Assembly: GCA_947453445.1 (NCBI GenBank)
Contig: CANGGP010000024.1
Location: 1 to 43,399 of the forward strand
Reading direction: 5' to 3'
Source of the DNA: Sphingobacteriaceae bacterium
GTDB taxonomy: Bacteria > Bacteroidota > Bacteroidia > B-17B0 > Aurantibacillaceae
DNA length: 43,399 nt
The notes beneath the pieces are model-generated. The model did not search any database and had not been told where the DNA came from. It saw only the letters and a program-made list of their open reading frames with translations. Positions 3,325 through 16,089 of this stretch are shown in pieces; the first letter of the stretch is position 1; each line of letters opens with the position of its first letter. The position numbers and the translations under genes were made by a program.

Positions 3325-5553
3325 TTATTCAACGATTAGTTTCCCGCTTAGTTTTGAATTCCCATTTTCAATTCTATAGATATAAATACCTTTTACAAGT
3401 GAATCCATTTTGATTGTATTTAATCCCCCTTCAATTTTAGATTTAAAAACAAGCAGTCCTGAGAGATCATAAACATATATTTCTCCGGTGCAATTGTCCT
3501 TTGTATTCATATTTAAATAAAAGAGGCCTTTACCCGGATTTGGGTAAATAAATGGAGCCGCTGATATGGATTGGTTTTCCGGAAGTCCAATGGTATTTTG
3601 ATTATACACGATAATTTTTTTGAAAACTGAATCCTTACAGGTATTGGCACCGGCAACTAACCTTAGCAAATAAACACCATTCAAGGCATAAACGTGCGGT
3701 TGAGGCTGTTGGCTAATTTCATTTGCACTGCCATCACCAAAACGCCAAATATAATTTTGAGCATTCTGCGAAAGGTTAGTCATCACCAAGGCTTCTCCAA
3801 TTCCGGCATTCAAACTATCCTTGTTTGTAATGAATGCTGCAAGTACAGGCGGTGGTTCAATTACAGCGATTGTTGAAGTAAATAAAGCGCAATAACCATT
3901 TTGATCATTGATTGCAACTTTATAAATACCTGCCGCAAGTTGTGATAAGGTATCAGCATAAAATTGAAATGCAGTTTGTTTGATTAACACATTGTTATTG
4001 GTGTACCAATTGTATGACCAAGGCCCGGCTCCTTCACCCTTTGCAATAACTTTACCATTTTGCAAATGTGCACACGATACTTGCATTGACTGTGTTTGTC
4101 CACGTCCGCTCACATGTAACAAAAATCTTGGGGCTTGTGTAGTGTCGGCTATAAAAAAAGTATAGGAATCATTTGTGGCAAAATTAGTTCTGATGCCTGT
4201 AAGCAAATCTTCAAGTACCACACAACTATTTGGATCAAGGTTGTAAATTGAATCACGTTGAATTTTATAAATACCGCTCAAGCCTACCTTTACTTTCACA
4301 GGAATGTGCAAGCTTGCACCAATGTTTGGCAAATTATTAATTGACAGGTCGTTTAAACTTGAATCTTGTGTTGCAATAGCCGGTACTGAAGGATTTGAGC
4401 TATACATTTTACGTGCATCTAAATCAGCATCAAAGGATTTGTGTGCGTTTGCATTAAACAACAAAATTGTTTCATCGCTATAATTGTTGCCGGTAATTTT
4501 CAAATTAAGTGCTTGAATATTTTGGCTTGATGCCGCTTTTAAAAATGTGGCGTTTGTTGCCACTTTAACACTTTCATTACAAGTTAAAACGGGAGAGCCT
4601 GCGTTGGCTTGCACCCAAAAGGCTTGAGATGAAGCAATTAAATTTGAACCGCCATTCACGGCAGTTCCTGCAACCCAACTGGCGTATTGTTGTAATACAG
4701 GATTCCAAATGTAAACAGCGTTATTCACATTGTTGCGTGTCCATCCGGTCGCACTCCAATCAATGGTTGAGGCATATGGATTACCAAGCAACACAAAACC
4801 ATCATTGGCCGCACCACCACTTGAAGTATATGAAAGCGAAAATGTTTGAGCAAACTTAGCAGGCGGCCCGCTAACATCAATTGTAACCGGCAAAGGACCG
4901 ATATATGCCATAAACCCTTTACCGGGAGTTAATGCATCATTTGCACTTGCGGGCGCAACAAAACCATTACCACTACTACCACTTACACTTTCGCTGTATG
5001 AATAAACCGAAACAAATGGAAATGTAGGATAATTGGAGCCGGGAAAACCCGAAGTAATAAAATTATCTTGCCAATCATTGATTGTTACTCCCGAAACCGG
5101 TGAGGCAATAAAGCGCCAACCGTTAGCGCCGGGTCCCAAATACCGCTGCATGGTAATGTTTCCGCTAATATCACCTTGTATGGGTGCAATTCGTGCAGTG
5201 CCATTCGCATCAGAAATGAATGTAAATGTGTATCCGTTTGTGCTAAAAGTACCCGCATTAATACTAAGTGTTCCTTTAATTTTTTCGTTGGCACTTAATG
5301 AAACCCCTGCACTATTGTTGATGGTTATATTATTGAAAATTGTTAATGAACTGCCGCTAATTTGTTGGGCACTGCTGCCGGAGAAGTAGGTAACATCACC
5401 CAAATCGGTGATGCTGCCATTGTTCATGAAGTTTCCAAACAAAGCAACACTGGCAGTGGGGAATATTTTTAAATTTCCGAAATTGCTCAACTGCTTCTGT
5501 GCCAAAGAGAAAAAGTAGCAGAAGAAAAACAAATATGTGAATGATTTTTTCAT
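3325..5553 (-). CDS. T9SS cargo protein with PKD domain
   Basis: This 742-residue protein opens with the signal peptide MKKSFTYLFFFCYFFSLAQ. The N-terminal part (about 25-130) has the repetitive Asn/Gly/Ser beta pattern common in T9SS proteins. It is followed by a region (about 130-320) with GNITMQRYLGPGANGWRFI and GFVLLGNPYASTIDWSA, frequently seen in large Bacteroidota surface proteins. A PKD domain lies near 570-650 (NYIWRFGDGSANE, HVYALNGVYLLRL). The C-terminus is a type A sorting domain: PFIYPNPGKGLFYLN, IYVYDLSGLLV, LVKGIYIYRIENG. It lies 35 bases downstream of the C1q-like gene on the same strand, so the two are probably co-transcribed. The role is unknown, probably surface attachment or glycan contact. 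Confidence 0.9.
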   Translation of the reverse strand: MKKSFTYLFFFCYFFSLAQKQLSNFGNLKIFPTASVALFGNFMNNGSITDLGDVTYFSGSSAQQISGSSLTIFNNITINNSAGVSLSANEKIKGTLSINAGTFSTNGYTFTFISDANGTARIAPIQGDISGNITMQRYLGPGANGWRFIASPVSGVTINDWQDNFITSGFPGSNYPTFPFVSVYSYSESVSGSSGNGFVAPASANDALTPGKGFMAYIGPLPVTIDVSGPPAKFAQTFSLSYTSSGGAANDGFVLLGNPYASTIDWSATGWTRNNVNNAVYIWNPVLQQYASWVAGTAVNGGSNLIASSQAFWVQANAGSPVLTCNESVKVATNATFLKAASSQNIQALNLKITGNNYSDETILLFNANAHKSFDADLDARKMYSSNPSVPAIATQDSSLNDLSINNLPNIGASLHIPVKVKVGLSGIYKIQRDSIYNLDPNSCVVLEDLLTGIRTNFATNDSYTFFIADTTQAPRFLLHVSGRGQTQSMQVSCAHLQNGKVIAKGEGAGPWSYNWYTNNNVLIKQTAFQFYADTLSQLAAGIYKVAINDQNGYCALFTSTIAVIEPPPVLAAFITNKDSLNAGIGEALVMTNLSQNAQNYIWRFGDGSANEISQQPQPHVYALNGVYLLRLVAGANTCKDSVFKKIIVYNQNTIGLPENQSISAAPFIYPNPGKGLFYLNMNTKDNCTGEIYVYDLSGLLVFKSKIEGGLNTIKMDSLVKGIYIYRIENGNSKLSGKLIVE

Positions 5554-8565: not shown

Positions 8566-9048
8566 CTAAATAAACAACAAGTGTGTGCCCAAACCTTTGG
8601 CGCGATCGTAAAAACCACCAACAGTCAACACATCATCCATGCCTTCATACAAATCTTCTTTTTTGTAATGAAACATGTCCATTGCCAATTTACAAGCCCA
8701 TAATTTAACACCCGATGCCGATAATATATCTAAAAATTCATGTACCGGCGGGATGTCGATTTTCTCCATTTCTTTTTTCATCATGCTTGTTGCTAATGAT
8801 TCCATGCCCGGAATGCCGCCTAATAATGTAGGAATGTGCATGGCAGGATTACCAACAGTAGCCACATGCAGGTGCTCTAATTTTTTGTTGTGCACGGCTT
8901 CCAATCCGAAAAATGTAAAAAACATTTCAGCTTCAATACCTTCTGCTCTTGCACCATTGGCCAAAATAAACGCGGCGTATACGTTTTCTAAAGTGGCCTT
9001 CGATAAGATGATCATCATCTTTTTAACTTCGCCATTGTACTCGTTCAT
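8566..9048 (-). CDS. DsrE/DsrF/DrsH-like (DsrE2) sulfur-carrier protein
   Basis: This 160-residue protein matches the DsrE2 pattern: an early strand MMIILSKATLENVYAAFILA, then EAEMFFTFFGLEAV, and the conserved single cysteine in KLWACKLAMDMF (Cys119), followed by VLTVGGFYDRAK. DsrE-type proteins carry sulfur as a persulfide on this cysteine and exchange it with TusA- and DsrC-like partners. It is the last gene of a three-gene unit: 22 bases separate it from the TusE/DsrC-like gene upstream. A cytoplasmic or membrane-associated role receiving sulfur from the neighbouring flavoprotein is inferred from context. No TusA or rhodanese is visible in the window. Confidence 0.85.
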   Translation of the reverse strand: MNEYNGEVKKMMIILSKATLENVYAAFILANGARAEGIEAEMFFTFFGLEAVHNKKLEHLHVATVGNPAMHIPTLLGGIPGMESLATSMMKKEMEKIDIPPVHEFLDILSASGVKLWACKLAMDMFHYKKEDLYEGMDDVLTVGGFYDRAKGLGTHLLFI

Positions 9049-9070
9049 AACTTAAATTTTAAAATAATTA

Positions 9071-9385
9071 TTAAATACAAGAAGCAGGTTTTGGTATACC
9101 GGCAATTTTGGTGGCAGTTTTTAATGGTCCTTGCGGAAACAAAGTATAAAACTCTTTAATGCTTACCACGCCGCTGTTACCAACCTTTCGGATGTTCAAG
9201 GCCACTTCTTTTTGATGTTCGCTTTGCAAATAACTAATCACATCCCAATGCCTTGGACTTAATTCTAAATTTGCTTCTTTGGCTAATGCTTCAGCAATGC
9301 TTTTATCCCATTGCGAAAAATCGGTGAGGTATCCTTCTTCATTCACGGCTATATTTTTACCGCTTATTTCTTTTAACTGTGACAT
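9071..9385 (-). CDS. tusE: TusE/DsrC family sulfur-relay protein
   Basis: At 104 residues this has the usual length of the TusE/DsrC/DsvC family and its signatures: NEEGYLTDFSQWDKSIAEAL, LSPRHWDVISYLQ, and the C-terminal arm KIAGIPKPASCI. The penultimate Cys103 is the conserved sulfur-accepting residue. The second arm cysteine found in dissimilatory DsrC, eleven residues earlier, is Thr92 here, so the protein has a TusE-like single-cysteine arm. TusE relays sulfur in tRNA thiolation, while related proteins serve sulfur oxidation. It lies 18 bases after the SQR-like gene and 22 before the DsrE2 gene. No tRNA-thiolating MnmA or TusBCD genes are nearby, so sulfide metabolism is the more likely context. 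Confidence 0.9.
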   Translation of the reverse strand: MSQLKEISGKNIAVNEEGYLTDFSQWDKSIAEALAKEANLELSPRHWDVISYLQSEHQKEVALNIRKVGNSGVVSIKEFYTLFPQGPLKTATKIAGIPKPASCI

Positions 9386-9403
9386 AATATTATTTTTTAA
9401 TGG

Positions 9404-10651
9404 TTAATGTTCTATATTTTCAAAATGTTTGCCTGACTCTTGCATGGTGGTTGATACAAAAGGAATGTGGGTGCCCTTGAGTAACATGTTCCAATAAATC
9501 CATTTAAAGGCCAGTTTGCCCATGTGGTTGATGCGACTTTCTTTTAATAAACGCAAAGGACCAATGCCCGGGAAGGGAAATGTGCCTTCAACAGGTTCGT
9601 GGGTATAATTAAAATCAATCAATAAGGCTTTGCCGTTTCCGGTTTCAACAAAACAATTTGCATGACCGTCGAATTCTTCTTTTAAAGCTTCGCCTTTCAT
9701 GTAACGCAAAATGTTTTCGGTTAAAATTTCTGCTTCAAAGTGGGCCACTGATCCTGCTTTAGATGCAGGAATATTGGAAGCATCACCCAACACAAAAACA
9801 TTTTCAAAATCTTTCGATTGCAAAGTGGCTTTGTTGGTTGGCACATAGTTTAATTCATCGCCCATGCCCGAGCGGCCAATCACATCATCACCTTTATTGG
9901 TTGGTACTGTTACCAATAAATCAAAAGGAATTTCTTTGCCGCCATAATCAACAATTACTTTTTTGTCGTTGTCGATGCTTTCAATGGCAAAATCGGTTTC
10001 AATGTGGATGTTTTTGTCGTGCAACAAATGATCTAGTGCTTGGGTGGCTTTTGGTTTGGTAAATGCGCCACTCAATGGTGTTACATAAGTTATTTCTACT
10101 TTGTCGCGCATTTTTTTGTGTTTAAAAAATGAATCGGCTAAAAATGCAAATTCGAGTGGGGCAACCGGACATTTAATTGGCATTTCGGTGATGTGCACCA
10201 CCAATTTGCCGCCATCCCAAGTGCGTAACCTGTTGCGCAGTGCCAAAGCCCCTTCATAAGTATAAAAATCAAACACACTATGGTGCCAACATTTTCCTTG
10301 CATACCTTGAGTTTCTTCCGGTGCAATGCGAGCGCCGGTGGCCACAATTAAAATGTCGTAGTTTAATTTTTTGCCATCTTCCAACAACACAACATTGTTT
10401 TTGGCTTCGATGCGATCGATTTTCGATTTGATTAAGTGAACATTTTTCGGAATAAATTCTTCAATTTCTTTTACAATGTCTTGCGGCTCATAAATATCGA
10501 AAGGAAGAAATAAATAACCGGGTTGATAATAGTGTTTTGTTCTTTCATCCACTATGCTGATTTGCCAGGTGTTTTTGTCTAACTCGTGACTTAAATGATT
10601 GGCCATCATGGTACCTGCTGTACCTGCACCTAAAATGAGTAATTGTTTCAT
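9404..10651 (-). CDS. Sulfide:quinone oxidoreductase-like FAD protein
   Basis: This 415-residue flavoprotein begins with an FAD-binding fold (LLILGAGTAGTMMANHL, residues 4-20) and has YDILIVATGA (98-107) and a C-terminal FAD motif VFVLGDASNIPASKAG (285-300). Three cysteines, Cys121, Cys161 (PIKCPVAPLEF) and Cys333, are at places consistent with the redox cysteines of sulfide:quinone oxidoreductases. The C-terminus has an aromatic, basic stretch (HMGKLAFKWIYWNMLLKG) like the membrane-contact helix of that family. SQR oxidises sulfide to polysulfide or persulfide and reduces quinone. The frame extends to 10678, but the ATG at 10651 starts directly with the FAD fold. It leads a unit with tusE/dsrC-like and dsrE2-like genes. 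A related flavocytochrome or NDH-2-like enzyme is the alternative. Confidence 0.8.
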   Translation of the reverse strand: MKQLLILGAGTAGTMMANHLSHELDKNTWQISIVDERTKHYYQPGYLFLPFDIYEPQDIVKEIEEFIPKNVHLIKSKIDRIEAKNNVVLLEDGKKLNYDILIVATGARIAPEETQGMQGKCWHHSVFDFYTYEGALALRNRLRTWDGGKLVVHITEMPIKCPVAPLEFAFLADSFFKHKKMRDKVEITYVTPLSGAFTKPKATQALDHLLHDKNIHIETDFAIESIDNDKKVIVDYGGKEIPFDLLVTVPTNKGDDVIGRSGMGDELNYVPTNKATLQSKDFENVFVLGDASNIPASKAGSVAHFEAEILTENILRYMKGEALKEEFDGHANCFVETGNGKALLIDFNYTHEPVEGTFPFPGIGPLRLLKESRINHMGKLAFKWIYWNMLLKGTHIPFVSTTMQESGKHFENIEH

Positions 10652-10760: not shown

Positions 10761-10774
10761 GTAACATTTGTTAC
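10761..10774. promoter_or_regulatory. Palindrome GTAACATTTGTTAC, possible regulator site
   Basis: GTAAC-ATTT-GTTAC is an inverted repeat with 5-base arms and a 4-base centre (6-base arms if A/T next to the centre are counted). This spacing is typical of CRP/FNR-family binding sites. It lies about 80 bases upstream of the -7 box of the sulfur operon, a position usable by an activator. Regulator identity is not shown. Confidence 0.4.
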
Positions 10775-11151: not shown

Positions 11152-14100
11152 TTAGTCTTTAATCACACGCATGGTTTTCACTTCACCATTGTTATTCACG
11201 CTAAGGATATAAAATCCTTTGGCCAATGAAGCCAAATCAAGACTAATATCTGAAGATGCATGCATGTTGTTGTAAACCATTTCACCTAAGCCATTGGTTA
11301 AAGTGATAAGGATTCTTTCGCTGCTTAGACCTTCGATGTGAATATTTACATTACCATTAAACGGATTAGGATAAACATTTACACTTAAGCCTTTATTTAG
11401 ATTTTGTTGTAAACCGGTACAATTAGAAACCGATTGGGTAAAGGCCGCTGAATTGTTGCAACCATTGGCTGCGGTAGCGTTAACACTGTAAATAGTAGTG
11501 ATGGTAGGATTCACGGCAATCAGCGATCCGGTGCCATTGTTACTCCAACTGTAGCTTGATGCGCCACTTACAGTAATGTTTGCGGTTTCACCAACACAAA
11601 TCAAACTTGCATTGCTCACAACAGTAATTGTTGGATTGGCTTTTACCGACACGGTACTAACGGCCGGCACATTGCTTACACAACCATCGGTACTGGTACC
11701 ACTTACACTATAATTGGTAGTCACACTTGGCGATACCACGCTGCTTCCACCGCTAATGGTATAGGTGTTTGCACCACCAGGCAAAATGCTAAATGATTTT
11801 CCTGCACAAATAGCGCCGCTGTTTACGCTAATAACCGGTAAGGCATTTACTGTTACTGAACTAACTGCCGCAATGCTGCTGATACAACCTTCAATACTGG
11901 TGCCGCTTACACTGTAATTGGCATTGCTCGAAGGTGAAACAGTATTGCTGCCACTGCTGATGGTATAAGTATTGGCACCTGCGGGGATGATGGTGAATAC
12001 TTTACCCGCACAAATGACGCCGCTATTTACAGATATACTTGGAATTGCATTAACAGTAAGATTACTTACGGCAATATTGCTGCTTAAACAACCTGCAGTA
12101 CTGGTACCACTTACACTATAAGAAGAATTACCTGCCGGCGAAACAGTGTTGCTGCCGCCACTAATGGTATAAGTATTTGCACCTGAAGGAATAATTGTAA
12201 AAATATCACCGGCGCAAATAGCACCGCTATTCACAGAAACAGTCGGTAAAGCATTCACACTCACCGAACTGATGGCGGTGTTACTGCTTACACATCCCAA
12301 TAAACTTGTACCGGTAACACTATAGGTGTTGTTGGCATTTGGACTAACGGTTGTGCTGCCGCCACTAATGGTATAAGTATTGGCACCACTTGGCACGATG
12401 GTAAAAGTGCTGCCCGAACAAATGGCACCGCTATTTACTGCAACGGTAGGCAATGCAATAACACTTAATTGACTAACAGCAGTGTTGCTGCCAATACAGC
12501 CGGCAGTGCTTGTTCCTGTAATACTGTAACTGTTGTTCGATAAAGGACTCACCACGCTGTTGCCACCGCTAATGGTATATGTATTGGCACCACTTGGAAT
12601 AATGGTGAAGGATTTGCCTGAACAAATACTGCCGCTATTCACTGCAATGGTAGGTGTAATATATACAGTCACCGAACTGGTAGCAGTGTTTGCACCTATA
12701 CATCCGTTAAGAGCTGTACCAGTAACAGTGTATGAAGTGCTTGCTGAAGGACTCACATTTGAACTGCTTCCTTGAATGGTATAAGTGTTTGCACCCGAAG
12801 GTATAATTGAAAATGAATTGCCTGAACAAATACTGCCGCTATTCACCGAAATGGTTGGGGTGGTGTTCACGCTTACTGAACTTGTTGCAGTGTTGGCACT
12901 AATACATCCATTGGCAGCGGTACCGGTAACTGTGTAAGTAGTATTTGTAGAAGGGCTCACATTACTGTTACCACCTTGTATGGTATAAGTATTGGCACCC
13001 GAAGCGATAATTGAAAATGAATTACCCGAACAAATTGTACCACTGTTAACTGTAATGGTAGGTGTTGTGTTCACAACAACTGAACTGCTTGCGGTATTCA
13101 CACCGGCACATCCATTGGCCGCTGTGCCAATCACAGTGTAAGTAGTGTTTACTAAAGGACTCACGTTGCTGCTACCACCTTGAATGGTATATGTGGCGGC
13201 ACCTGAAGGAATAATGGAGAATGTATTACCCGAACAAATATTACCGCTGTTCACAGCAATAGTTGGCGAAGTATTCACGGTAAGACTACTGTTGTTATTT
13301 GCAGGCACTGTGCATCCGGTTAAAGTTCCACTTACGCTTATCACAGTATTGCTTACAGCTAATACGCTAATGCTGGCGCTTGTTGCACCGGTACTCCATG
13401 AATAGGTATTCACGCCTGAAGCTGATAAGGTCACACTTTGACCTGAACACAAAGTAGCTGAATTTACAACAATGCTTGGCGCAGGTGAAGTGCTTAAACT
13501 AACACTAACAGGCGCCGAATTACAACCGGCAGTGCTGGTGCCAAATACTGTAAATACAGTGTTACTATTGGCCACAGGGTTAATATTGCTGGATGTACCG
13601 CCATTGCTCCAACTGTAAGCGTTGGCACCGCTTGCTGTTAAAGTGGCTGTGCCACCAACACAATTGGTTACTGATAGTGCCGAAACAGTTGGATTGGCAT
13701 AAACAATAATATTGGCTACTGCTGTATTTGCGCTTAAACAACCCAATGAGCTGGTGCCTGTTACTGAATAATTGGAAGTGCTTGCAGGTGATACTGTGGT
13801 GTTTCCACTACTGTATGTATAAGTGTTTGCGCCTGAAGCAAGCAATGTAAATACTTGTCCTGCACAAATACTGCCGCTGTTTATACTTACAGTCGGCAAG
13901 CTGTAAACAGTAAGTGCCACAGTTGATGATTTAACACAACTGTTTGCGTCGGTAACATTTATGGTGTAAATGGTATTGGCAGTTGGATTTACAGTTTGTG
14001 AGCTGCTTGAAGCACCCGATACCCATGCATATGAATAGGCCCCGGTACCACCGCTAGCACCCGAAGTAAGGGTGGCGGTTGCACCACTACAAATTGTTGC

Positions 14101-15939
14101 CGACGATCCGGCCACAGTTAAAGTGATTGCGCTTGGTTGGGTAATGGTAACGGTATTGGAGCTTGTGCAATTGTTTGCATCGGTTACAGTAACTGTTAAA
14201 ACACCCGAATTTTGATTTACCAAAGCCGATGAAGTTGAACTGCTCGACCACAAATATGTGTAAGCTCCGGTGCCACCGCTAGCTATCACTGAAGCGCCAC
14301 CGTTGTTTCCGGCATTACAACTCACATTGCTTACGCTTGTTGATGTATTTAATGCCGTAGGTTGTGTAATTGTTACCGAAGCAGTAATTCTACAATTGTT
14401 TACATCGGCAATGGTGACTGTTTTTACACCTGCATTTAAACTGCTTGCCACCGAAGCGGTACCCGCAGTTGACCAAAGATATGAATAAGGCGCTGTGCCT
14501 CCTGATACTGTAACACTGGCCGAACCGTTAGTGCCGCCATTACACAATACATTCACTGCTGCTGTACCACTACTCATGGTTGCGGCAGGCTGGGTAATGG
14601 CAAATGTTTTGGTTAAAACAGGACAAAGATTTGCGTCTATAATATTACATGTATAATTATTGGCTGATAAACTACCGGCAGTAGCTGCACTGCCAACTGA
14701 TGGCGACCATGAATAAGTATATGGAGAAGTACCTCCTGAAACAGAAACATTCGCCACACCATTGCCCGAGCCAAAACACGATAAATTGGTTTGGCTACTT
14801 GAGGCAGCTAAAACTGAGGGCTCAGTAATGGTATAAGTTGAAGCAGTTAATAAATTATTGGCGTCTTTAACGGTTAAAGTATATACACCGGCCGATAATC
14901 CCGATAAGCCTGAAGTATTTGCGCCACCGGGGGCCCAAGTATAAGAGTAAGGAGAGGTGCCACCATTTACTGTAGACGACAAAGCTGCATTGGAATTTCC
15001 GTTACAAGCTAAAGTAGTAGTTTGAGAAATGTCAACACCATACAACAAAGTAATTAGCACTTTACCATTTCCTAAGGTGTTTAATACACTTAATGAAGTG
15101 CTTGTTGCTGTATTAATCAAGTATGAACTTCCACCATAACCGGCTGTATATCCGCCACCGCCGCCGCCGCCGCCATTATAACCGCCGCCGCCGCCGCCGC
15201 CGCCTGTGCTACATGAACACGAACCGCCGCCACCGCCAAAACCGCCGTCGCCATGAGGTGCTCCGGGATTACCGCCTGCACCCGGAATACCACCCAACTG
15301 ACCGGCACCACCATTTAAAAATGATTGTGCCACGGTGTAGTATGAACCACTCCATGTTTGTCCTTGTCCGTTAGAATTATATCCAGCACCAACTCCACCA
15401 AAAGTGGAGGGTGAAGCATTAAGCACCGAAGTCGATAAACTGGCATCTTGTCCGCTTAGGTATTGTTGCGCAGCACCGCCACCTCCACCTGCAACAGCCA
15501 ATAAAGTAGAGCCGTTGGTTACAAATGATCCACCGCCACCACCATCAGAATTTGACGGGGCATATGTAGAACCCATTTGACCTACCAGTATGTTTAATAC
15601 TGTACCTGCTGAGAATGTAAAATTTCCAGTAATTCTTGCGCCATAACCTGAATAGCTTGATGCGTTACCGCCACTGGCACCATACACATCAATGCGGTAA
15701 GGACCAGTTACCGGAACCGTCCATGTTTGAATACCGGCATTCGACGTAACCGCACCATTCAAATTGGTTGATGCATACGCACTGTTAATTTGTCCTTGGC
15801 TAGGTCCAACCCTTCCGGTTGCGCCCGCCGAAGTAAAACTATAAGTGATTTGCGCATCCAACTGCCTTGAGCCGAATGCCAAACCCACTGCCGCAATTAA
15901 AATTGCTGCTCTTTTTGTTGTAAAAATTGGCTTTTTCAT
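11152..15939 (-). CDS. Giant T9SS adhesin with glycine-rich head, SprB and Ig-like repeats
   Basis: This 1595-residue surface protein starts at the ATG at 15939 (MKKPIFTTKRAAILIAAVGL, signal peptide ending near LDAQ); an upstream in-frame ATG at 15975 is less likely. Residues ~80-280 are a glycine-rich domain with long Gly runs and CSCS. Four SprB-type repeats follow (~320-620; SGGTSPYTYSW, then ITQPxA). Then come about twelve Ig-like units of ~68 residues with the core VNSGxICxG..F.I.PSGANTYTI. The C-terminus is a type A T9SS sorting domain (VYPNPFNGNVNIHIEG, GLGEMVYN, LAKGFYILSV). SprB repeats are known from the gliding adhesin of Flavobacterium; a role in adhesion or motility is inferred. 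The gene is probably monocistronic: a terminator follows, and a weak TAATTTTG (15968-15961) lies just upstream of the start. Confidence 0.9.
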   Translation of the reverse strand: MKKPIFTTKRAAILIAAVGLAFGSRQLDAQITYSFTSAGATGRVGPSQGQINSAYASTNLNGAVTSNAGIQTWTVPVTGPYRIDVYGASGGNASSYSGYGARITGNFTFSAGTVLNILVGQMGSTYAPSNSDGGGGGSFVTNGSTLLAVAGGGGGAAQQYLSGQDASLSTSVLNASPSTFGGVGAGYNSNGQGQTWSGSYYTVAQSFLNGGAGQLGGIPGAGGNPGAPHGDGGFGGGGGSCSCSTGGGGGGGGYNGGGGGGGGYTAGYGGSSYLINTATSTSLSVLNTLGNGKVLITLLYGVDISQTTTLACNGNSNAALSSTVNGGTSPYSYTWAPGGANTSGLSGLSAGVYTLTVKDANNLLTASTYTITEPSVLAASSSQTNLSCFGSGNGVANVSVSGGTSPYTYSWSPSVGSAATAGSLSANNYTCNIIDANLCPVLTKTFAITQPAATMSSGTAAVNVLCNGGTNGSASVTVSGGTAPYSYLWSTAGTASVASSLNAGVKTVTIADVNNCRITASVTITQPTALNTSTSVSNVSCNAGNNGGASVIASGGTGAYTYLWSSSSTSSALVNQNSGVLTVTVTDANNCTSSNTVTITQPSAITLTVAGSSATICSGATATLTSGASGGTGAYSYAWVSGASSSSQTVNPTANTIYTINVTDANSCVKSSTVALTVYSLPTVSINSGSICAGQVFTLLASGANTYTYSSGNTTVSPASTSNYSVTGTSSLGCLSANTAVANIIVYANPTVSALSVTNCVGGTATLTASGANAYSWSNGGTSSNINPVANSNTVFTVFGTSTAGCNSAPVSVSLSTSPAPSIVVNSATLCSGQSVTLSASGVNTYSWSTGATSASISVLAVSNTVISVSGTLTGCTVPANNNSSLTVNTSPTIAVNSGNICSGNTFSIIPSGAATYTIQGGSSNVSPLVNTTYTVIGTAANGCAGVNTASSSVVVNTTPTITVNSGTICSGNSFSIIASGANTYTIQGGNSNVSPSTNTTYTVTGTAANGCISANTATSSVSVNTTPTISVNSGSICSGNSFSIIPSGANTYTIQGSSSNVSPSASTSYTVTGTALNGCIGANTATSSVTVYITPTIAVNSGSICSGKSFTIIPSGANTYTISGGNSVVSPLSNNSYSITGTSTAGCIGSNTAVSQLSVIALPTVAVNSGAICSGSTFTIVPSGANTYTISGGSTTVSPNANNTYSVTGTSLLGCVSSNTAISSVSVNALPTVSVNSGAICAGDIFTIIPSGANTYTISGGSNTVSPAGNSSYSVSGTSTAGCLSSNIAVSNLTVNAIPSISVNSGVICAGKVFTIIPAGANTYTISSGSNTVSPSSNANYSVSGTSIEGCISSIAAVSSVTVNALPVISVNSGAICAGKSFSILPGGANTYTISGGSSVVSPSVTTNYSVSGTSTDGCVSNVPAVSTVSVKANPTITVVSNASLICVGETANITVSGASSYSWSNNGTGSLIAVNPTITTIYSVNATAANGCNNSAAFTQSVSNCTGLQQNLNKGLSVNVYPNPFNGNVNIHIEGLSSERILITLTNGLGEMVYNNMHASSDISLDLASLAKGFYILSVNNNGEVKTMRVIKD
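11641..13271 (-). repeat. Eight tandem 204-bp coding repeats in the adhesin gene
   Basis: Eight consecutive units of about 204 bp (68 residues) share strong DNA and protein similarity; the segment encoding GANTYTI recurs at a steady 204-base step (for example near 12170, 12374, 12578 and 12782). More divergent units flank it on both sides (about 11430-13900). Such repeats favour recombination and length change. Confidence 0.85.
15100..15560 (-). repeat. Glycine-rich coding segment with GGC-type trinucleotide runs
   Basis: The plus strand shows runs of CCG/CCA triplets, strongest at 15154-15210, coding poly-glycine on the minus strand. This yields spurious arginine-rich and alanine-rich open frames on the other frames, which are not listed as genes. 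Confidence 0.8.
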
Positions 15940-16089
15940 ATCCTTGTAAATTTCTTTCGACAAAATTACAGGCAATTGATTTCGACGTTTTGATTAGTGA
16001 TTTAAGTCACACGATGCTCCACAAGCCAATATACACGGGCACTTATTTGCTTGAATTAAAAAAAGGAGATTTTCTATTTTAATTGCTTT

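Follow-up and report, generated by a model that had tools for sequence, protein, structure and literature searches.

Three adjacent genes encoding a sulfide:quinone reductase (SQR), a DsrC-type sulfur carrier and a DsrE2-type sulfur carrier were identified in a stretch of 43,399 nucleotides from a Sphingobacteriaceae bacterium (contig CANGGP010000024.1; this whole stretch is hereafter the window), and comparison with other Bacteroidota showed SQR-DsrC-DsrE2 to be a real, conserved and discrete unit whose members are inherited jointly. The unit is a new arrangement of known families, and no description of it was found in the open-access literature by title or displayed abstract among the matches listed. 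Its presence as a fixed three-gene unit across many Bacteroidota suggests a short protein relay for sulfide sulfur that works without the usual partners. On balance we lean towards a compact operon for sulfide oxidation and sulfur relay, in which a TusD/TusE-like pair of carriers would receive its persulfide from SQR instead of from IscS-TusA.

The three genes lie head to tail on the minus strand from 10651 to 8566, with gaps of 18 and 22 bases (Table 1). An earlier note on this DNA, made from its sequence, had proposed a compact sulfur operon here, and its coordinates, strand and gaps proved correct when the sequence was rechecked. A scan for promoters and terminators returned fewer sites than were counted in shuffled sequences and is uninformative.

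SQRs are membrane-bound flavoenzymes of the cytoplasmic side, which make sulfane sulfur on their cysteine pair. The flavoprotein of the window scored 650.6 bits (cut-off 525) against NF049943, a model titled 'type III sulfide quinone reductase, selenoprotein subtype' at NCBI, and its closest solved structures were SQOR chains, some of them mitochondrial (best E-value 3.8e-45), while NDH-2 chains reached about 1e-7 at best. Residues were compared in an alignment of 103 cassettes, two of the 105 with all three genes having been removed by a length filter. C161 and C333 were invariant in all 103 rows, aligned in phmmer with the redox cysteines of human SQOR (which we take to be C201 and C379), and were both replaced by Leu in E. 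coli NDH-2. The earlier note had counted three cysteines in this protein, at 121, 161 and 333; these positions are right when counted from the ATG at 10651, but conservation is confined to C161 and C333. Cys121 occurred in one of the 28 cassette rows of the tree, the window's own, and its column contained less than 20% Cys in the 103 rows, so a set of three catalytic cysteines was rejected.

A tree of 56 SQR rows was constructed from the window, 27 other cassette SQRs, the SQR of locus L088 and 27 others. In it, L088 fell into one group with all 28 cassette rows (support 99/93), and the sister group consisted of SQRs from f18, a dsr-bearing family (98/94 for the two combined). The Staphylococcus SQR, which carries a type II annotation, lay in another clade (100/100), and E. 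coli NDH-2, with neither cysteine, was a long outlier. The name type III rests on the NCBI model, since the tree holds no independently labelled type III row. NDH-2 or another non-SQR flavoprotein, the alternative that the earlier note had singled out for testing, was rejected on the NF049943 score, the SQOR matches, the tree and the presence of both catalytic cysteines: the protein groups with SQRs and keeps the two cysteines that E. coli NDH-2 lacks. The motif H330-A-N-C333 of the window, encoded with a Cys codon, agrees with HxxU, the motif given in a 2026 review (PMC13188914) for those NF049943 members that are selenoproteins; selenocysteine would there occupy the place of C333, which suggests a redox centre at this residue. 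Selenocysteine in this motif was found in none of the 73 over-cut-off SQR genes from 296 Bacteroidota genomes; no internal stop was present in any of them, so none of that sample looks like a selenoprotein. According to the accessible part of a 2026 paper on cable bacteria, type III SQRs have two canonical catalytic cysteines (PMC13047784); in the accessible part of a study of Bohai Sea sediments, most SQR sequences were type III, and Bacteroidota were among the sources of the upregulated sqr transcripts (PMC12345210).

The second protein exceeded the cut-offs of PF04358 (97.9 bits, cut-off 24.9) and of TIGR03342, the TusE/DsrC/DsvC superfamily (85 bits, cut-off 53.5), remained below that of the TusE equivalog NF008562 (71 bits vs 191), and carries a penultimate Cys in its PKPASCI tail. 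This residue, C103, was kept in 102 of the 103 rows and corresponds to CysA, but the CysB position was T, S or A in all 103, so that the two cysteines of dissimilatory DsrC are not both present. Its description as a DsrC-type carrier in the earlier note thus holds for the TusE/DsrC family as a whole; with its one C-terminal cysteine the protein is TusE-like, and the second Cys that marks a true DsrC is missing. DsrC proteins with one cysteine cannot take part in the two-cysteine DsrAB chemistry and are limited to shuttling persulfide, and TusE and TusD are a known pair in which TusD hands sulfur to TusE. A DsrC tree (104 columns; 8 of 32 inner branches starred, mostly weak) was used solely for the split between cassette and f18 proteins. 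The third protein scored 120.6 bits against PF13686 (DrsE_2; cut-off 25), and its C119 was invariant in 103/103 rows. With 106.9 bits it stayed below the cut-off of 210 of the NCBI DsrE2 equivalog NF047629, so its designation as a DsrE2-type carrier is borne out by the Pfam family and not by the equivalog.

Each protein family was sought in one common set of 296 Bacteroidota genomes, and the share of family f18 was counted by hand from the listings. NF049943 SQRs were over the cut-off in 73 genomes, PF13686 in 79 and TusA in 68; DsrC was matched in 77 (76 over the cut-off). Family f18, with at least 64 genomes, contributed 45 SQRs and 47 DsrCs to these totals. Outside f18, SQR was over the cut-off in 28 genomes and DsrC in 29, all 28 being common to both and the extra one being G160; DsrE2 was present in all 28, and the order SQR-DsrC-DsrE2 was kept in every one of them (the window plus 27 fetched loci). 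The order was also kept in 77 of 80 named loci, which are the best 80 of at least 586 relatives and are biased to close kin; two of the remaining three end at contig ends, and the third, L088, has SQR alone. Two of the named loci come from metagenome-assembled genomes whose bins are labelled Planctomycetaceae and Eisenbacteria. Cassette loci include Chitinophagaceae, Saprospiraceae and Flavobacteriaceae. Two extra DsrC loci were without an adjoining SQR: L042, where G005 has its second copy, and L047 (G160). G160 also has a further weak DsrC place, L061, which gave no hit.

When 901 neighbouring open reading frames from 110 loci were clustered, no regular fourth neighbour emerged: none occurred in more than 16 loci, vs 93-107 for the cassette genes. 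A chance neighbourhood was rejected on the order conservation in the sampled and named loci and on this clustering. The survey of relatives that the earlier note had proposed therefore upheld the gene order, and its list of co-occurring genes held no regular neighbour beyond the three. DsrC was found in 2 of 39 other genomes of the window's genus, so the unit is patchy. On plasmids, the cassette itself was not seen among the matches listed. DsrC was matched in 15 plasmid records (Escherichia, Klebsiella, Proteus and Aeromonas), those named among the 12 matches listed being TusE; DsrE2 was matched in 135, and among the 12 matches listed the organisms were mostly staphylococci and haloarchaea and the annotations were CstA, DsrE/DsrF/DrsH-like and, once, dihydroneopterin aldolase.

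The earlier note had seen no TusA, reverse Dsr, rhodanese or dioxygenase gene and had suggested a small system in which SQR-made sulfur is handed directly to a DsrE2-DsrC pair. In the window's genome, whose completeness is estimated at 100%, no TusA, the mark of a Tus relay, no dsrA, the mark of reverse Dsr, and no DsrE-family protein besides the DsrE2 of the cassette were found. A single one of the 28 cassette genomes has an over-cut-off TusA, and none has an over-cut-off dsrA (weak matches below it in 7), vs 6/6 f18 controls; reverse Dsr in the source organism was therefore rejected. The absence reported in the note thus stands genome-wide for TusA and dsrA and, together with that of other DsrE-family proteins, favours a relay that works without the usual partners; for rhodanese and dioxygenase it is true of the window and wrong for the genome. 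Eleven rhodanese-domain matches were found there, corresponding to nine places after merging of double-domain genes, none of them on the window's contig, and including two MBL-fold/double-rhodanese fusions and one CoA-disulfide-reductase-like/rhodanese fusion. The MBL fusions are called dioxygenase-like by their make-up alone and fall below the cut-off of NF040641, the sole matching dioxygenase model. These genes also leave room for an ordinary SQR-dioxygenase route in the organism.

Upstream of the SQR gene lies the palindrome GTAACnnnnGTTAC, the sole perfect copy of GTAAC-N4-GTTAC in the window, and this form equals the HcpR2 (Crp/Fnr) motif given in a 2005 study that compared nitrogen-oxide regulators (PMC1274295). 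When one mismatch was allowed, the whole window contained 2 matches vs 1.26 expected, which is unremarkable, and the weight therefore lies on the multi-locus comparison. For this, 107 upstream regions were compared, one of 108 having been dropped because its upstream DNA was too short. The perfect palindrome was found in 30 of the 107 and a copy with at most one mismatch in 44, vs dinucleotide-shuffle means of 0.02 and 0.63. With the window excluded, 29 copies were located in 31.3 kb of 300-base upstream regions vs 15 in the 816 kb of the remainder of the same loci, an enrichment of about 50-fold. Chance was rejected by comparison with mononucleotide and dinucleotide shuffles and with the remainder of the same loci. 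The four-base spacer is of 17 kinds, which argues that the palindrome is not just a matter of recent common descent, though many of the loci come from flavobacterial kin.

In some members of the group, the window among them, the operon is probably under a Crp/Fnr-family regulator, of HcpR2 type to judge from the motif; a Crp-like gene was present in 6 of the 107 loci. A gene for a SorA-type molybdenum enzyme stands downstream of the cassette in 4 of the 107, and all four SQR upstream regions carry the palindrome; in L036, L107 and L125 the SorA-type gene has a copy of its own. PF00174 and PF03404 were detected in the one such enzyme scanned. Genes for FadL/TodX-type outer membrane proteins, two of them at 23-24% identity, were found in 16 of the 107 loci (for example L117:2617-3990), with the palindrome sometimes between the cassette and the FadL-type gene or upstream of the latter. 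FadL-type proteins may have a role in sulfur uptake, for which no claim is made here. The accessible part of PMC10812762 contains no mention of FadL. No copy of the palindrome, even at one mismatch, was detected at the eleven rhodanese loci of the window's genome, dioxygenase-like fusions included.

In the relay that we favour, SQR would oxidise sulfide with quinone and collect sulfane sulfur on C161/C333. The DsrE2-like protein would accept this sulfur on C119, either from SQR or from a small persulfide, and would pass it on to C103 of the TusE-like DsrC, acting as a soluble persulfide shuttle; DsrE2 would thereby replace TusBCD, and SQR would replace IscS-TusA. With SQR as source, DsrE2 as first carrier and DsrC as second, such a relay is plausible by analogy with SQR-TusA neighbours and with the cst operon. 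The likely end use would be detoxification to sulfite by the persulfide-dioxygenase-like enzymes of the genome; across the group the end point may be sulfite via a dioxygenase where one is present, sulfate via SorA in a few, or biosynthetic use. A stricter version, in which SQR rather than a cysteine desulfurase would load the DsrE2/TusE-like pair by direct protein-to-protein persulfide transfer, as a TusA-free relay fixed as a unit across Bacteroidota and partly wired to an HcpR2-type regulator and to SorA sulfite oxidation, we put forward tentatively, as something that may well prove too specific. If such a relay exists, many heterotrophic Bacteroidota would own a compact sulfide route that is missed by annotation for TusA, rDsr or sHdr, one-cysteine DsrC would gain a use outside tRNA thiolation, and the acceptor of sulfur from such an SQR would become a testable question with three proteins.

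Several observations weigh against the relay. The DsrC of L052 is without the Cys, L088 retains SQR without carriers, and TusA is present in G188, one of the cassette genomes. An extra gene of about 230 aa, of DUF1641 type in the three scanned, separates SQR from DsrC in 7 of the 28 cassettes. Pairing of SQR and DsrC is loose in f18, where G067 and G284 have an over-cut-off SQR without a DsrC match and G185, G233, G244 and G256 have DsrC without an over-cut-off SQR. The distance matrices of the three cassette proteins agree (r 0.75-0.82; permuted maximum 0.15), which speaks for the relay, but this agreement may reflect shared ancestry only. The palindrome is absent, even at one mismatch, from 63 of the 107 upstream regions. 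Finally, a dioxygenase-like fusion was found in 104 of the 296 genomes (E-values up to 1e-60, with no more than five candidates scored in each), among them only 11 of the 28 that have the cassette, so it is no dedicated partner; as an obligate partner it was rejected, 17 of the 28 being without a match and the fusion being common in genomes without the cassette.

These figures also bear on the simplest rival, an ordinary SQR-persulfide dioxygenase detoxification, in which a small thiol would be the acceptor, the fusion would make sulfite, and DsrC and DsrE2 would merely buffer or protect persulfides. The two fusions of the window's genome agree with it, as does a fusion match in all nine cassette genomes from the class to which the window belongs, its own genome among them; in G049 and G099 the sole match is a more distant one (33-37% identity). 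However, the same 17 genomes lack the fusion at this threshold, and inheritance of the carriers with SQR in 28/28 genomes is more than an accessory would predict. We consider this route rather unlikely as the full account. A somewhat less likely account starts from the 30 perfect HcpR2-type palindromes (motif from the accessible part of PMC1274295) and views the operon as part of an anaerobic or nitrosative-stress response governed by HcpR2, with SQR removing sulfide and so protecting respiration when nitric oxide or low oxygen is sensed; the upstream regions lacking the site speak against it, non-HcpR Crp/Fnr proteins may read the same site, and regulation alone does not reveal the biochemistry.

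Improbable in our judgement is a biosynthetic relay, with DsrC acting as TusE and SQR-derived sulfur being delivered to MnmA or another thiolation enzyme. The one-cysteine tail and the TusE/TusD precedent are what it would predict, but the cassette is too patchy for housekeeping (28 of about 230 non-f18 genomes, besides the scarcity of DsrC within the genus), and TusA and other DsrE-family proteins were not found in the genome.

Compared with known systems, the favoured relay resembles the Staphylococcus cst operon (cstA-cstB-sqr) in that SQR is encoded with sulfur-transfer proteins. The cassette DsrE2 is homologous to a region of Staphylococcus CstA, a protein that bears the annotation persulfide-response sulfurtransferase and has a rhodanese-TusA-DsrE make-up. 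However, the staphylococcal SQR is annotated as type II and adjoins the persulfide dioxygenase CstB, whereas the cassette has an SQR of another clade, no TusA, a separate TusE-like DsrC, and dioxygenase-like genes elsewhere. With the E. coli Tus relay (TusA-TusBCD-TusE) it shares a one-cysteine TusE with a similar C-terminal tail (36.8% identity) and a DsrE-superfamily donor, but the window's genome is without TusA or a further DsrE-family protein, and the sulfur source is probably SQR instead of IscS. The f18 genomes, presumably green sulfur bacteria, have SQRs of the same NF049943 family in the sister clade, and most of their SQR-bearing genomes have DsrC, DsrE2-type and TusA genes; they differ in the presence of dsrA (6/6 tested), in the two Cys of the f18 DsrC shown in the DsrC alignment, and in the placement of SQR, which lies some kilobases from DsrC instead of adjoining it where both are listed on one contig. 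In the TusA-SQR(-DUF1641) clusters of Chlorohelix and Haloarcula plasmids, a related SQR likewise adjoins a small sulfur carrier, and in Haloarcula a DUF1641 gene follows SQR, as it does between SQR and DsrC in some cassettes; the carrier there is TusA, whereas Bacteroidota use DsrC and DsrE2. Family f21 also has TusA beside a related SQR (L175:1143-2524, TusA directly before SQR with a four-base overlap).

Table 1. Features of the SQR-DsrC-DsrE2 locus in the window and of related loci
Feature	Position	Strand	Remarks
Sulfide:quinone reductase, NF049943 family	9404..10651	-	415 aa; catalytic pair C161 + C333
TusE/DsrC-family sulfur carrier	9071..9385	-	104 aa; single Cys103 (CysA); Thr92 at the CysB place of DsrC
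DsrE2-like sulfur carrier (PF13686)	8566..9048	-	160 aa; invariant Cys119
Palindrome GTAAC-N4-GTTAC	10761..10774	.	-123 to -110 relative to the SQR ATG; putative operator of a Crp/Fnr-family (HcpR2-type) regulator
SorA-type sulfite-oxidase-family gene	L036:5260-6480, L107:6308-7528, L118, L125:7530-8810		downstream of cassette
Inserted gene of about 230 aa	L040, L041, L044, L053, L057, L058, L059		SQR/DsrC interval; DUF1641-type in three scanned

Two other proteins of the window were noted by eye. Adjoining the operon, positions 11152-15975 encode a repetitive protein of 1607 aa with many similar repeats, probably a surface protein, and positions 3325-5553 encode a protein of 742 aa with a C-terminal stretch resembling a type IX secretion sorting domain.

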